Shown: in pieces, positions 5,465 to 33,915 of the stretch
Position numbering within the stretch: position 1 is the stretch's first letter
How the letters are laid out: each line of letters opens with the position of its first letter
Assembly (NCBI GenBank): GCA_020850535.1
Contig: JADZEM010000131.1
Span: 1-37,552, forward strand
Source of the DNA: Chloroflexota bacterium
GTDB lineage: Bacteria > Chloroflexota > UBA6077 > JACCZL01
DNA length: 37,552 nt
Direction: 5' to 3'
Notes under the pieces: generated by a model
What the model saw: the letters and a program-made list of their open reading frames with translations, nothing else
What the model was told of the DNA's origin: nothing
The model's database searches: none
Translations under genes and position numbers: made by a program

Positions 5465-7777
<2,313 letters not shown>

Positions 7778-29882: not shown

Positions 29883-31610
29883 TCAGTGGACTGGCGGGCG
29901 CGGCAGGCCGCTCGACGCTGGCCCGACGGAGCTTGAGGCCAGCGCCGTATCGTGGGTCAGGATCGGGATCAGGTCGAGGGCGCTCGGGACCACGAAGATG
30001 CCCATCGGCGTGGTGCGGCCTCGGACCGTCATCTCGTCGCGCACGAAGCCCGACAAATCGATGCCAGCCCGCAGCGACAGATCCTCGCTGACGATCAACT
30101 GCGCCTTGTACTCCTTGCTGGCGGACTCCAGCCGACTGGCCGTATTCACGGCGTCGCCCAGGGCCGTCAACGTGCGTGCCCGGCCGTACCCCATCTCCCC
30201 GACGATCACGTGCCCGACGTGGATGCCGATGCCGATCCGCAGCGGCTCGGCCAGATCCTGGGCCAGCACCCGGTTCAGCTCGTCCAGCGCCTGGGCCATC
30301 GCCACCGTCGCGTCGAGCGCCTGCCGGCAGCCGCGCACGGCGTCCTGCCCGACCCCGAACAGCGCCATCACGCCGTCGCCGATGAACTTGTCGAGGTGGC
30401 CGCCGCTCGCCTCGACCGCTTCGCCCATCGCCTTGAAATACTCGTTCATCACGAAGACCACGTCGTACGGCAGGCGATGCTCCGAGAACTTGGTGAAGCC
30501 GCGAATGTCGGCAAAGAGGATGCCGATCTCCTGCTCGCTGGCCGAGGCCGAGCTTGGCCGCAACACGCTCTCGGCAGACTGGATGGTGGGCGGCAGCAAT
30601 GGGATGATGTTCAGGTCGTGGACGGGCCGGAGCTGGCAGGCGAGGCGGACATTCGGCGGCGCGCCGACCCGCCTCAGGACACGCTCCTCGTCGGGGGTCG
30701 GCGGCGGCACCTGCGCCGAGGCCGGCCCGATACGCGAGCGGCAGGTTGAGCAACGGCCCTTGCCCCCGCACAAGGAGGCGTGCGGGATGCCGGCCGAGCG
30801 GCTGGCGTCGAGCACGGTCATGCCAGGCACGGCGTTGACGCGCCGCCCGCCTGGGTAAGTCAGCCGCACGACGCCGCGTCGCCGCAGCAGCCACTGGCGC
30901 ACGTAGCGCGCAGCGAAGGCCAGCACGACCGAGGCGACGAAGATCCCGTTGGCGATGCCGGCCCAGCCGAGCACCATATCGTTCTGGGCGGGCGTCATCC
31001 CCTCGAACGTCCGGTCGATCCAGCCGGGCGTCTGCGAGAACAGCGCCGTCTCGCGTCCGATGCCGGCGAACCCGGCCAGCGCCAGGGCCGGCAGCAGCAA
31101 CGCGCCCGCGCGCAACAGCGTTCGGTAGCGCGGATACCAGGGCTTGAACTGCAGCCACCAGCGGACGCCCATGCAGCCGTGCGTCCAGGCGATCACCAGC
31201 AGCAGCGCCTGGACTGCCGCGCTGCTCGGGTGCTCGACCCACATGCCGAACACGACGTAGGCGTAGGTATCGTGGAAATCCTGGGTGACCTCGTTGAGGA
31301 TGCGCGTGCCGAAGATGTGTGGGATCAGCATGAACGGCATCGCAAGCCCAAGCCCGAGGCGCACCAGCTCCCAGCGGGGCAGCCGCAGGTGCCGTGCGCG
31401 GTAGAGCGCCTGGAGCACCAGCACGATGTGGGTGAGGAACGCGCCGTACAGGACGACGGTGCCGACGGGGTTGCGCCAGATCGCCAGCATCACCAGGCGG
31501 CCCAGCTCGGCGGCATCCAGCGAGAAGATGCCAAGTGAATGGTTGAGCAGGTGCGTGCCCACGAAGACGAACAAGACCAACCCGGACCAGAGCCGCAGTT
31601 TCCGCGTCAC
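29883..31610 (-). CDS. Membrane-anchored class III adenylate cyclase with [2Fe-2S] domain
   Basis: A 575-residue signalling enzyme with three parts. Residues 1-245 contain about six membrane helices with histidines placed as in b-type cytochromes (GTHLLNHSLGIF, DFHDTYAYVVFG, AWTHGCMG). This suggests a heme-binding anchor like that of succinate dehydrogenase cytochrome b. Residues of about 265-345 form a plant-type ferredoxin domain with CGGKGRCSTC and a later Cys in RLACQLRP. Residues of about 360-530 form the cyclase domain with both metal aspartates (LFADIRGFTKF and FIGDGVMALFG) and GDAVNTASRLES with the transition-state Asn and Arg. Cyclic nucleotide output controlled by redox state is the natural reading. 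GTG 31610 is chosen because GGGAGG lies seven bases upstream and the membrane domain begins there. Confidence 0.9.
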   Translation of the reverse strand: MTRKLRLWSGLVLFVFVGTHLLNHSLGIFSLDAAELGRLVMLAIWRNPVGTVVLYGAFLTHIVLVLQALYRARHLRLPRWELVRLGLGLAMPFMLIPHIFGTRILNEVTQDFHDTYAYVVFGMWVEHPSSAAVQALLLVIAWTHGCMGVRWWLQFKPWYPRYRTLLRAGALLLPALALAGFAGIGRETALFSQTPGWIDRTFEGMTPAQNDMVLGWAGIANGIFVASVVLAFAARYVRQWLLRRRGVVRLTYPGGRRVNAVPGMTVLDASRSAGIPHASLCGGKGRCSTCRSRIGPASAQVPPPTPDEERVLRRVGAPPNVRLACQLRPVHDLNIIPLLPPTIQSAESVLRPSSASASEQEIGILFADIRGFTKFSEHRLPYDVVFVMNEYFKAMGEAVEASGGHLDKFIGDGVMALFGVGQDAVRGCRQALDATVAMAQALDELNRVLAQDLAEPLRIGIGIHVGHVIVGEMGYGRARTLTALGDAVNTASRLESASKEYKAQLIVSEDLSLRAGIDLSGFVRDEMTVRGRTTPMGIFVVPSALDLIPILTHDTALASSSVGPASSGLPRPPVH

Positions 31611-31847
31611 CGAACAACCTCCCGCCAGCGCCGCCGCGCACCAGGATCGGGTGCGCGCACACCTGCACGCCGCCGGGCGAGCCACCCACCACGAAGGCCG
31701 CCCTCGGAGCGCTATGGTACTCGGAATACGAGCCTGACGGGAGCGGCGGCTGTATCGCCGCTGTCAGATCGCGAACAGCAGCCGGAGGGTGCGGAATCTG
31801 TGCATGACTGAGCGCCCCCAGGATGCAACGCCAGCCAGCACGGCCCG
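31611..31847. other. Intergenic region with inverted repeat
   Basis: About 240 bases upstream of the cyclase with no gene I can support. AGCGGCG (31742-31748) and CGCCGCT (31756-31762) form a 7-bp inverted repeat around seven bases. A CTCG-GAATA-CGAG repeat lies just before it. Confidence 0.4.
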
Positions 31848-31898
31848 CTACCGCGCGACGTAGGGGATCGTCTGGGGGCCTTGCGGCAGCACGGCGAT
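31848..31898 (-). pseudogene. Remnant of a larA 3' end
   Basis: On the minus strand this segment encodes RIAVLPQGPQTIPYVA, then Arg and a TAG stop. The intact larA at 32555-33844 ends with the same 16 residues followed by Gly and a stop. A 44-base block (31855-31898) is identical to 32562-32605. Upstream of the block the two sequences diverge at once, so this is a fragment, not a second gene. Confidence 0.7.
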
Positions 31899-31908
31899 GC
31901 GGAGATCG

Positions 31909-32175
31909 TCATGCACTGCGAGAACTCCTGGCTGTGACGGCATCTTCTGGCACGTCGCGGAGCACCAACAAGCACTCACTTGGTAGCGGGAGCAGCGCAT
32001 ACGTTCGTCCGTCGCGGCCGGCGAACTCTACCTCGCACTCACCGTTGCCGTAGATCAGGACGACCGTGCCGACGTCGCCCCGGTGCAGCACCACGGGCAT
32101 TCCATGCTCAAAATGTGTTGCCTGCACATCGTTGAGGAGGGCTACGGAAGCGTGCAGAGGAACGCGATCGTCCAT
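31909..32175 (-). CDS. DUF4926 domain protein
   Basis: An 88-residue protein with the DUF4926 pattern: HGMPVVLHRGDVGTVVLIYG, then CEVEFAGRDGRTYALLPL. The family is a small beta-rich fold frequently encoded beside DUF6883 and other toxin-like proteins. It starts at ATG 32175, three bases after the stop of the DUF6883 gene. The last residues after LLVLRDVPED look atypical and run towards the larA fragment, so the original C-terminus may have been altered by the insertion. An antitoxin or immunity role is only inferred from gene neighbourhood. Confidence 0.75.
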   Translation of the reverse strand: MDDRVPLHASVALLNDVQATHFEHGMPVVLHRGDVGTVVLIYGNGECEVEFAGRDGRTYALLPLPSECLLVLRDVPEDAVTARSSRSA

Positions 32176-32178
32176 GCT

Positions 32179-32511
32179 CTAGACTATATAGCAGGTAGTC
32201 AGTCGCGGGATATCCTCGCCGTGCAAAATGATCCAGGCCGTCAATACAGTAGCGCTGCCCTGCTCCGTGCTCAGCACGAACCGAATCGCATACACCACAC
32301 CGTGACCATTGTCCCCGCGCATCACAGCTTCCGTCGATTCGGTCGCAGCGGCAAGTATCGCCTGCCGTAACAACGCTCGGTTCTCGAGTGTGATCCCGAG
32401 CGCCGACTCGAAAACTCGTGCCTTGTGTCGGCCATCGCGGTGCAGTGGATTGAGGACATATTCCTCAAGCTTCACACCCAGGTCCGCCCGGTCTCCATTC
32501 GGCAGCCTCAT
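32179..32511 (-). CDS. DUF6883 domain protein
   Basis: A 110-residue protein matching the DUF6883 pattern: the MRLPNGDRADLGVKLEEYVL opening, NPLHRDGRHKARVFESALGI, and the closing AWIILHGEDIPRLTTCYIV, which fits a small alpha/beta fold often found at the end of polymorphic toxins or as a stand-alone partner of DUF4926. It starts at ATG 32511 with a weak ribosome site, 43 bases after the larA stop on the same strand. It may form a two-gene toxin-antitoxin-like unit with the following gene. The activity of the family is unknown to me. Confidence 0.75.
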   Translation of the reverse strand: MRLPNGDRADLGVKLEEYVLNPLHRDGRHKARVFESALGITLENRALLRQAILAAATESTEAVMRGDNGHGVVYAIRFVLSTEQGSATVLTAWIILHGEDIPRLTTCYIV

Positions 32512-32554
32512 GGCAAGCTGAGAACCGCGCGAAGCTCAGCGAAGCGTATGCGGG

Positions 32555-33844
32555 TCAGCCGGCGACGTAGGGGATCGTCTGGGGGCCTTGCGGCAGCACG
32601 GCGATCCGGGCGTCTGATCCGGCCTCGCGGACGAGCCGCTCGGCCGTCTCGGCCACGTCGAGGCAGCGCTGCATGTGCGCCTGCGCCACCTGGGCATCGG
32701 TCAGGCCTCCCGTGTGCAGATGCACGCGCGCACGCTTCTGGATCTGGGCCTGGACCTGTACCTGCCACTGATCGTGCATGTGGAAGCCGTCCGACGTGAT
32801 CAGGTCCAGCAGCTCCTGCGGCGATGTCCCGAGCTTCAGGATGTCCTTGTAGTTGCCGAACTCTGGCAGGCCGTCCGAGCACTCAGCAGCGGCCACAATC
32901 GCGCCGCCATCCGCCACGATCTGGTTGGCGGCGGACATCCCCTTGATCGCCTGATAGAGGTTCAGGTCGAGCGGGTAGCCACTGTTGGTGGTGACCACCA
33001 CCTCGTACGGCTTCGCGACGGGCTGCATCGCCGTGTCCTTCACGAAGGCGCACCCCTGCTTGTGGGCCGTGAACAGCTCGCCGGCGAACACGGACGTGAT
33101 CTCGTGATCCTTGTTGAGCGTCACGTCGAGGGTGAAATCCGGCTTGACGACGGACGAGATCTCGCGGATGTCGTCGTGCATCGGGTTGCCGTAGGTGATG
33201 CCCCAGATCGCGTTCGGGTGGGAGATCATCGGCGCGCCGTGCAGGTGCAGCACCGTCTCGATGGCCGCCAGCCCCGGCGCGATCATCTTCGGGCCGCCCG
33301 AGAACCCGGCGAACAGGTGCGGCTCGATGAACCCGGTCAGGATCTTGAAGTCGTGGCCGAGGAAGTCCGACTCGACGTAGATCGGGCCGCCGGAGCTGGT
33401 CTTCCCCAGGTAGCGGTGTCGCGCGAGGTCGAAGGCGTCGTGGTTGACCACCCGATAGTTGCGGACGATATCCGCGCCGAGCATCCGCTCCAGCTCTTCG
33501 GTGGTGTTCCCCCGGTGCGTCCCCGTGGCGATGAAGATCGTGACGTTCTTCGGATCGACGTGGTCGATCTCCGAGAGGATGACGGGCAGGATGCGGCGGG
33601 TCGGCGTGGCGCGCGTGATGTCGCAGACGCTGATGGCGACCGTTGCGCCGGCCGGCACGCGCTCGCGGAGCGGGGCCGAGGCGTGCGGCTCGCGCATCGC
33701 CTTGCGGAGCGCGGCAGGCTCGTCGGCCAGGCCCGGCAGGTAGCGCGGCTCGATGACCGTGGTGCGGTCGGCCGGCAGCTCGACCTCCAGGCCGTTCTTC
33801 CCGTAGGCCAGCATCACGCGCGTCGTCTTACTCACAGGCCCCAT
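32555..33844 (-). CDS. larA: Nickel-pincer-dependent racemase/epimerase, LarA family
   Basis: A 429-residue LarA-like enzyme that interconverts 2-hydroxy acids using a nickel-pincer nucleotide. From memory of Lactobacillus plantarum LarA, the key residues match with an offset of two: His108 to H110 (ATGTHRG), His174 to H176 (EPHLFAGF), Lys184 to K186 (SGGPKM, cofactor attachment) and His200 to H202 (HLHG). The DITRATPTR block fits the substrate-binding arginine region. The cofactor makers LarB, LarC and LarE are not in the window. It is divergent from an enolase-superfamily gene, which suggests sugar- or hydroxy-acid catabolism with a substrate other than lactate. ATG 33844 follows GGGAGG closely. 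GTG 33835 is an alternative. Confidence 0.9.
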   Translation of the reverse strand: MGPVSKTTRVMLAYGKNGLEVELPADRTTVIEPRYLPGLADEPAALRKAMREPHASAPLRERVPAGATVAISVCDITRATPTRRILPVILSEIDHVDPKNVTIFIATGTHRGNTTEELERMLGADIVRNYRVVNHDAFDLARHRYLGKTSSGGPIYVESDFLGHDFKILTGFIEPHLFAGFSGGPKMIAPGLAAIETVLHLHGAPMISHPNAIWGITYGNPMHDDIREISSVVKPDFTLDVTLNKDHEITSVFAGELFTAHKQGCAFVKDTAMQPVAKPYEVVVTTNSGYPLDLNLYQAIKGMSAANQIVADGGAIVAAAECSDGLPEFGNYKDILKLGTSPQELLDLITSDGFHMHDQWQVQVQAQIQKRARVHLHTGGLTDAQVAQAHMQRCLDVAETAERLVREAGSDARIAVLPQGPQTIPYVAG

Positions 33845-33869
33845 CCGCCTCCCTCTCGTCACTCTCTGC

Positions 33870-33915
33870 ATTGTAGCGCCCGGCTCGGGCCGGCTACCGT
33901 GTGCGAGCGGGTAGC
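33870..33915. promoter_or_regulatory. Divergent larA/enolase promoter region
   Basis: On the minus strand TACAAT (33870-33875) is a good -10 for larA, about 26 bases before its ATG, but its -35 is poor. GCTACC (33893-33898) and GGTAGC (33910-33915) form a 6-bp inverted repeat around 11 bases between the two divergent genes, an operator candidate. Confidence 0.4.

Follow-up and report, generated by a model that had tools for sequence, protein, structure and literature searches.

The closest described systems to the locus reported here are CIMEs (cis-mobilizable elements) and IMEs (integrative mobilizable elements). In these elements, as set out in the cited parts of two sources, direct repeats restore the end of a housekeeping gene into which integration has taken place (mostly the 3′ end, more rarely the 5′ end), tandem arrays form after decay, and CIMEs are found without an integrase (PMC5704250; PMC3146451). 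The ssrA islands of Dehalococcoides, for example, are described in the latter as arrays of gene-end repeats, 15 of them without integration modules. Our loci share the gene-end repeats but differ in that the insert is only ~0.6-1.1 kb and carries a toxin-like pair, the repeats are gene-specific and have no core, and no integrase-bearing parent was found. A second precedent is provided by E. coli, where recircularised linear DNA carrying the end of lacZ integrated by a single crossover and generated duplications of that end of 109-950 bp (PMC3240628, in the part cited). There, as here, a foreign cassette is flanked by a duplicated gene end of variable length, although that case concerns laboratory plasmid DNA, whereas our repeats are 40-141 nt and a natural donor for larA was not found. 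Finally, the minimal mobile elements of Neisseria are small cassettes that are swapped between conserved genes through homologous recombination; unlike the present inserts, they have as their defining feature an exchange flanked by two conserved genes, and the definition, in the part of the source cited, does not include gene-end duplication (PMC3082526). The parts of the arrangement described below are known, namely toxin-like pairs, gene-end integration and insertion-duplication. What seems not to have been described in the literature searched, where coverage of subscription papers is thin, is their combination, in which minimal toxin-like cassettes recur, in two phyla, beside different conserved genes with a duplicated end; we found nothing on point there for toxin-antitoxin insertion with gene-end duplication.

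The window (that is, the whole 37,552-nt stretch of a Chloroflexota contig analysed here) contains, as host gene, a member of the larA (lactate racemase) family (32555..33871, minus strand; Pfam Lar_N, E 8e-58, and LarA_C, E 2e-28). Downstream of it are two small, adjacent and co-oriented genes, encoding DUF6883 (32179..32511, minus strand; 110 aa; PF21814, E 9e-22) and DUF4926 (31909..32175, minus strand; 88 aa; PF16277, E 8e-17), and the Pfam matches bear out the family labels of the initial annotation. These two genes are the only contents of a 659-nt insert (31903..32561, minus strand), which holds no integration or transfer genes and has a GC content of 60.1%, compared with 67.6% for the window; an equally low value was seen in 4.9% of 738 tiles of the same size. 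The insert is bounded by a direct repeat of 48 nt (31855-31902 and 32562-32609), in which 47/48 positions are identical (98%) and the first 44 nt are exact (31855-31898 and 32562-32605). At the setting of the repeat search used, this was the sole direct repeat of at least 26 nt across the 37.5-kb window, and a chance origin is ruled out by the local alignment score of the flanks (91, whereas 50 dinucleotide shuffles gave no more than 35). The 44-bp duplication of the larA 3′ end around the two genes, as initially annotated, is thus confirmed.

The inner copy of the repeat (32562..32609, minus strand) supplies the last codons of the intact larA gene, which ends in RIAVLPQGPQTIPYVAG and a stop codon (R-I-A-V-L-P-Q-G-P-Q-T-I-P-Y-V-A-G-stop). 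The outer copy (31855..31902, minus strand) is a second larA end that starts 7 nt past the DUF4926 stop codon and reads RIAVLPQGPQTIPYVAR and a stop codon (R-I-A-V-L-P-Q-G-P-Q-T-I-P-Y-V-A-R-stop). The duplicated piece corresponds to the last 16 codons of larA; the outer copy keeps the frame and has its own stop, TAG at 31848-31850, at the same codon position as the inner one. The initial annotation had placed the cassette exactly between direct copies of the last codons of larA, with a matching C-terminal peptide in the outer copy. The repeat, the frame and the stop position agree with this, but the repeat ends 4-6 nt short of both stop codons, which lie outside it, and the last residue differs (G in the inner copy, R in the outer). 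Its statement that no integrase is present also held: neither an integrase nor a transposase was found when 25 window ORFs (the longest ones, some of which may be antisense choices) were scanned against Pfam. The gene downstream of the cassette (29883-31685) joins a Fer2 (2Fe-2S ferredoxin) domain to a class III nucleotide cyclase domain.

Structural modelling offers a predicted function for the inserted pair. The AlphaFold2 model of DUF6883 (mean pLDDT 96.3) has CdiA-CT toxins as its best PDB folds (Z 11.5 over 101 residues and 9.2 over 95), and its next-nearest folds are the RelE (Z 5.8), BrnT and HigB toxins (Z 4.5-6). We take this fold to be BECR, and DUF6883 is predicted to be a ribonuclease-toxin-like protein of the CdiA-CT/RelE fold. 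The model of DUF4926 (pLDDT 82.6) is mostly beta with weak SH3-like matches (best Foldseek E 2.7e-3), from which we infer an SH3-like, antitoxin- or immunity-like partner that may neutralise the toxin. In an Anoxybacillus plasmid, DUF6883 (E 1e-20) forms the C-terminal part of a Phage_Mu_F protein (L261:2939-4375; MuF-type minor capsid), i.e. an apparent MuF polymorphic-toxin architecture, and this gene is followed by a 56-aa gene without a Pfam name. In its predicted fold and its MuF fusion, DUF6883 therefore resembles the toxins of type II toxin-antitoxin and CDI/MuF toxin-immunity pairs; unlike those pairs, DUF6883-DUF4926 has no published function that we could find in the literature searched.

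In the genome from which the window comes (227 contigs; 4.58% contamination), DUF6883 was matched twice and DUF4926 three times. One of the DUF4926 matches, on contig C84, is a truncated gene flanked on both sides by the duplicated 3′ terminus of a gene for a polysaccharide deacetylase (40 nt at 97.5%, or 39/40 nt, and 52 nt at 88%; the copies are 997 nt apart). Within these repeats it is accompanied by two small ORFs that have no Pfam match (L038:5430-5759 and 5769-6005), which may represent the insertion of another cassette on top of the first. The third DUF4926 locus, on contig C68, has no flanking repeat. A scan of 350,091 bases (including the window, L037 and L038) and 400,000 more, out of 7.65 Mb, gave nothing that we took as comparable besides the two known cases, most of the other listed pairs not being inspected singly; L064 was set aside since it sits within one ORF, and L072 was judged from the match list to be of low complexity. 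The ends of contigs C18, C19 and C15 (L066, L067 and L063) carry repeats of ~100-165 nt that recur about every 200-230 nt, a likely cause of the assembly breaks.

Similar arrangements recur in the phylum of the window, where DUF4926 was found in 36/301 genomes. Flanking direct repeats (at least 50 bits within 1.2 kb) were present at 8/44 DUF4926 loci but at only 53/3581 control points from the same stretches (1.5%); the 53 control matches come down to 10 distinct pairs in four loci, and those shown were REP-like or intergenic. A conservative comparison of 8/44 with these 10 pairs in ~139 non-overlapping windows (a number worked out by hand) gave P 0.043. At five of the 44 loci the repeat is a piece of host coding sequence, a label assigned by eye, compared with 0/139 in the controls (P 0.0007, or P 0.003 for 4/43 when the window is excluded). 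Besides larA and the deacetylase gene, these are the 3′ end of uvrC (78 nt, 91%), the promoter and 5′ end of alaS (141 alignment columns, 84%), of which the extra copy is frameshifted, and a gene-internal piece at L089 (64 nt, 92%). The remaining three repeats are not host-gene duplications, being REP-like (L153 and L173/L097) or intergenic (L170/L090), and 36 of the 44 loci, including the third locus of the genome described above, have no flanking repeat. Among other gene families, GNAT control loci had flanking repeats in 0/30 cases and PemK toxin loci in 4/30, three of which look REP-like and one of which (L210) is a coding-looking 41-nt piece. A tblastx search for older duplications was of no use, as 199/472 control points also matched, owing to GC-rich composition.

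The DUF6883-DUF4926 pair itself is also present at L098, L103 and L250. Cassettes at unrelated places are homologous over the two ORFs and little else (84% over 601 nt for L101/L103; 69% for both L092/L098 and L096/L097), and it is therefore the two genes that form the recurring unit. Insert sizes at six loci range from 631 to 1090 nt. No attachment core or common cassette terminus was shared over these six loci, where k-mer sharing was no better than in shuffles, and no recombinase was seen beside the five parallel cases (29 of 41 listed ORFs and one more were scanned). Furthermore, in none of 52 cassette loci did larA, uvrC, alaS, the deacetylase gene or gnd lie beside an unduplicated cassette, as would be expected of a donor. 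One further locus has a different cassette beside the DUF6883-DUF4926 pair: at L096:1751-2798, an HNH endonuclease gene and an 83-aa ORF lie between 130-nt direct repeats (94%), which were left out of the 8/44 count; the ORF downstream presumably encodes a molybdopterin enzyme. The region upstream of alaS varies among five relatives of G100, the genome with the alaS duplication, within its genus. At L118 (~1317-1450 of the oriented locus), and likewise at L117, a short Ala-rich frame (MQQNLTSFAAQAAAATCALFEPATA in L118, read by eye) precedes a terminator-like hairpin, and the two resemble an attenuator of the leader-peptide type for the alanyl-tRNA synthetase gene; their place is taken by the cassette in G100.

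Five relatives of the window's DUF6883 were found in genome_contigs, the closest (58% identity) in a Verrucomicrobiia MAG. Here the pair lies downstream of gnd (6PGD, E 1e-133), where inserts alternate with copies of the final 101-115 nt of that gene to form an array; there are four copies and, 4.4 kb further on, a partial fifth, and other inserts encode a restriction-enzyme C-terminal remnant (Type_ISP_C) and a beta-helix protein. Between the real gene end (R0) and R2, 6/8 changes are silent, where a share of 0.23 is expected (P 0.003), and between R1 and R2 the figure is 10/19 (P 0.007), with base-composition and transition bias outside the test. The proportions for R0 and R1 (8/19, P 0.053), for R2 and R3 (3/6, P 0.15), of which R3 carries a stop codon, and for the two uvrC copies (3/7, P 0.20) are not significant. 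As the differences are mostly silent in some pairs, we read some of these gnd copies as foreign gene ends, which probably accumulated their differences while functional in other genomes before being brought in with the inserts. The other four relatives in genome_contigs have no flanking repeat, nor do the three plasmid loci examined of seven. Among 50,697 phage records there were no relatives, and none of the 11 stretches of viral_contigs that matched a pattern encodes one.

With regard to larA itself, matches were obtained in 28 of 61 related genomes, many being distant family members. Most of the closer relatives' larA ends share the conserved terminal peptide LPQGPQTIPYV (15 ends from other genomes displayed). 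The initial annotation had proposed a comparison with relatives lacking the cassette, and a search for other cassettes at larA ends. All 15 displayed ends lack the cassette; the DNA downstream of them is non-homologous and they are not true empty sites. An empty larA site with homologous flanks was not found in this set (61 genomes, 28 with a larA match, 15 ends displayed). In its last codons, the outer copy (GTC GCG CGG TAG) is similar to G003 (GTC ACG CGG TAG) and the inner copy to G001 (GTC GCC TGA), which does not settle which of the two is ancestral.

We tentatively favour, with slightly less than even confidence, a reading in which a mobile toxin-partner cassette integrated together with a host gene end by a single crossover. 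DNA originating in another genome would have carried a larA-type gene-end piece together with the cassette; this fragment would have circularised, and one homologous (RecA-type) crossover inside the larA end would have left larA complete at its 3′ end, followed by the cassette and then by an additional gene end. Such an insertion would cost little, because larA keeps its intact end, and the pair, if active as toxin and antitoxin, would resist loss. This reading builds on the observed duplication at larA and similar ones at further conserved genes, on the gnd array with its silent-change bias, and on the toxin fold prediction. The gnd R2/R3 pair and, with one additional nucleotide, uvrC have repeats that terminate at the stop codon, and the two larA copies stop at the same codon, as would be expected if homology between alleles is lost where coding constraint ends. 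Repeats of 40-141 nt with no motif and no common ends speak against one transposase or one integrase and, since no recombinase was found either, no specific enzyme would be needed. On the other hand, homology of 44-48 nt is near the lower limit for homologous crossover, and this counts against a single crossover, as do the lack of an empty site and of a donor, the 36 of 44 DUF4926 loci without a flanking repeat, the lack of a significant silent excess at uvrC, gnd R0-R1 and gnd R2-R3, and the alaS frameshift. The original suggestion of an insertion that regenerates the 3′ terminus of its gene thus has parallels at the deacetylase gene, uvrC, alaS and gnd and is unproven at larA, and its likeness to integrating elements extends to the gene-end repeats but, with neither an integrase nor a shared core motif, not to an established site-specific element.

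The main alternative, unlikely in our judgement, is that the locus is a CIME, in which an IME or ICE with an integrase specific for the larA end decayed to a toxin-antitoxin module and two attachment repeats, the pair having survived because an addictive pair resists deletion. The integration habits of IMEs and the Dehalococcoides arrays outlined at the outset fit this account, and the restriction-enzyme remnant in the gnd array is of the kind seen in a decayed island. However, several integrases would be required for six different genes, with no core motif common to the loci, and in a small survey no integrase was found in any insert or in the neighbouring ORFs scanned. It is because the inserts are tight and the integrases missing that we prefer a single crossover to a decayed element, without proof.

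Local target duplication is improbable. A staggered or doubly nicked break in larA would have been filled in and end-joined to the cassette, duplicating 44-48 nt, in keeping with the exact 44 nt at larA, the 39/40 nt at the deacetylase gene, the variable repeat length and the gene-internal case at L089, which looks like copied filler DNA. Against this, some gnd copies differ as functional alleles would, and a random break would not arrange for the uvrC and gnd R2/R3 repeats to end at a stop codon or for both larA copies to stop at the same one. A still poorer candidate is that larA was once present in two tandem copies on either side of the cassette and that the second of these was deleted down to its last 48 nt. 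The in-frame outer copy with its own stop is compatible with such a history, but near-complete deletions leaving remnants just as short would have had to occur repeatedly, at several unrelated genes, and two tandem larA genes, the arrangement that the initial annotation had set beforehand against its own reading, were not seen with or without the cassette among the relatives' larA matches examined. An assembly or binning artefact, which the fragmentation and contamination of the source genome might invite, is very improbable indeed, given the two intact genes kept in the insert and two parallel cases (G110, at uvrC, and G175) in genomes given as one contig.

Two other classes of element were considered and rejected. 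Insertion of a transposon or IS does not fit repeats that are not fixed in length and cassette ends that, over the six loci, share no k-mer beyond shuffles. Integron gene cassettes are mobile one- or two-gene cassettes in arrays separated by repeats, and are in this sense similar to the gene-end arrays. Unlike theirs, however, the repeats here are locus-specific ends of protein-coding genes (larA, deacetylase, uvrC and gnd) rather than attC, as judged without an attC covariance search, and no integron integrase was seen.

More generally, it is possible, if somewhat doubtful, that these loci represent recombinase-free, minimal toxin-antitoxin units that have captured the ends of conserved genes as portable landing sites and can be stacked into arrays, as at gnd. 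Such a unit would travel with a gene end, land by homologous crossover at that gene and regenerate the gene in its new host. The route by which small toxin-antitoxin pairs pass from one chromosome to another without recombinases is, to our knowledge, an open question, and our results suggest that gene pairs of the addiction type spread by carrying part of a conserved gene with them. The duplicated gene ends are a readable scar of integration, bearing on the source, on the arrival of foreign DNA and on the predicted empty site and, as the scar predicts an empty site, the question can be tested by genome comparison. Furthermore, insertion at gene ends would explain how such pairs accumulate beside conserved genes without harm.
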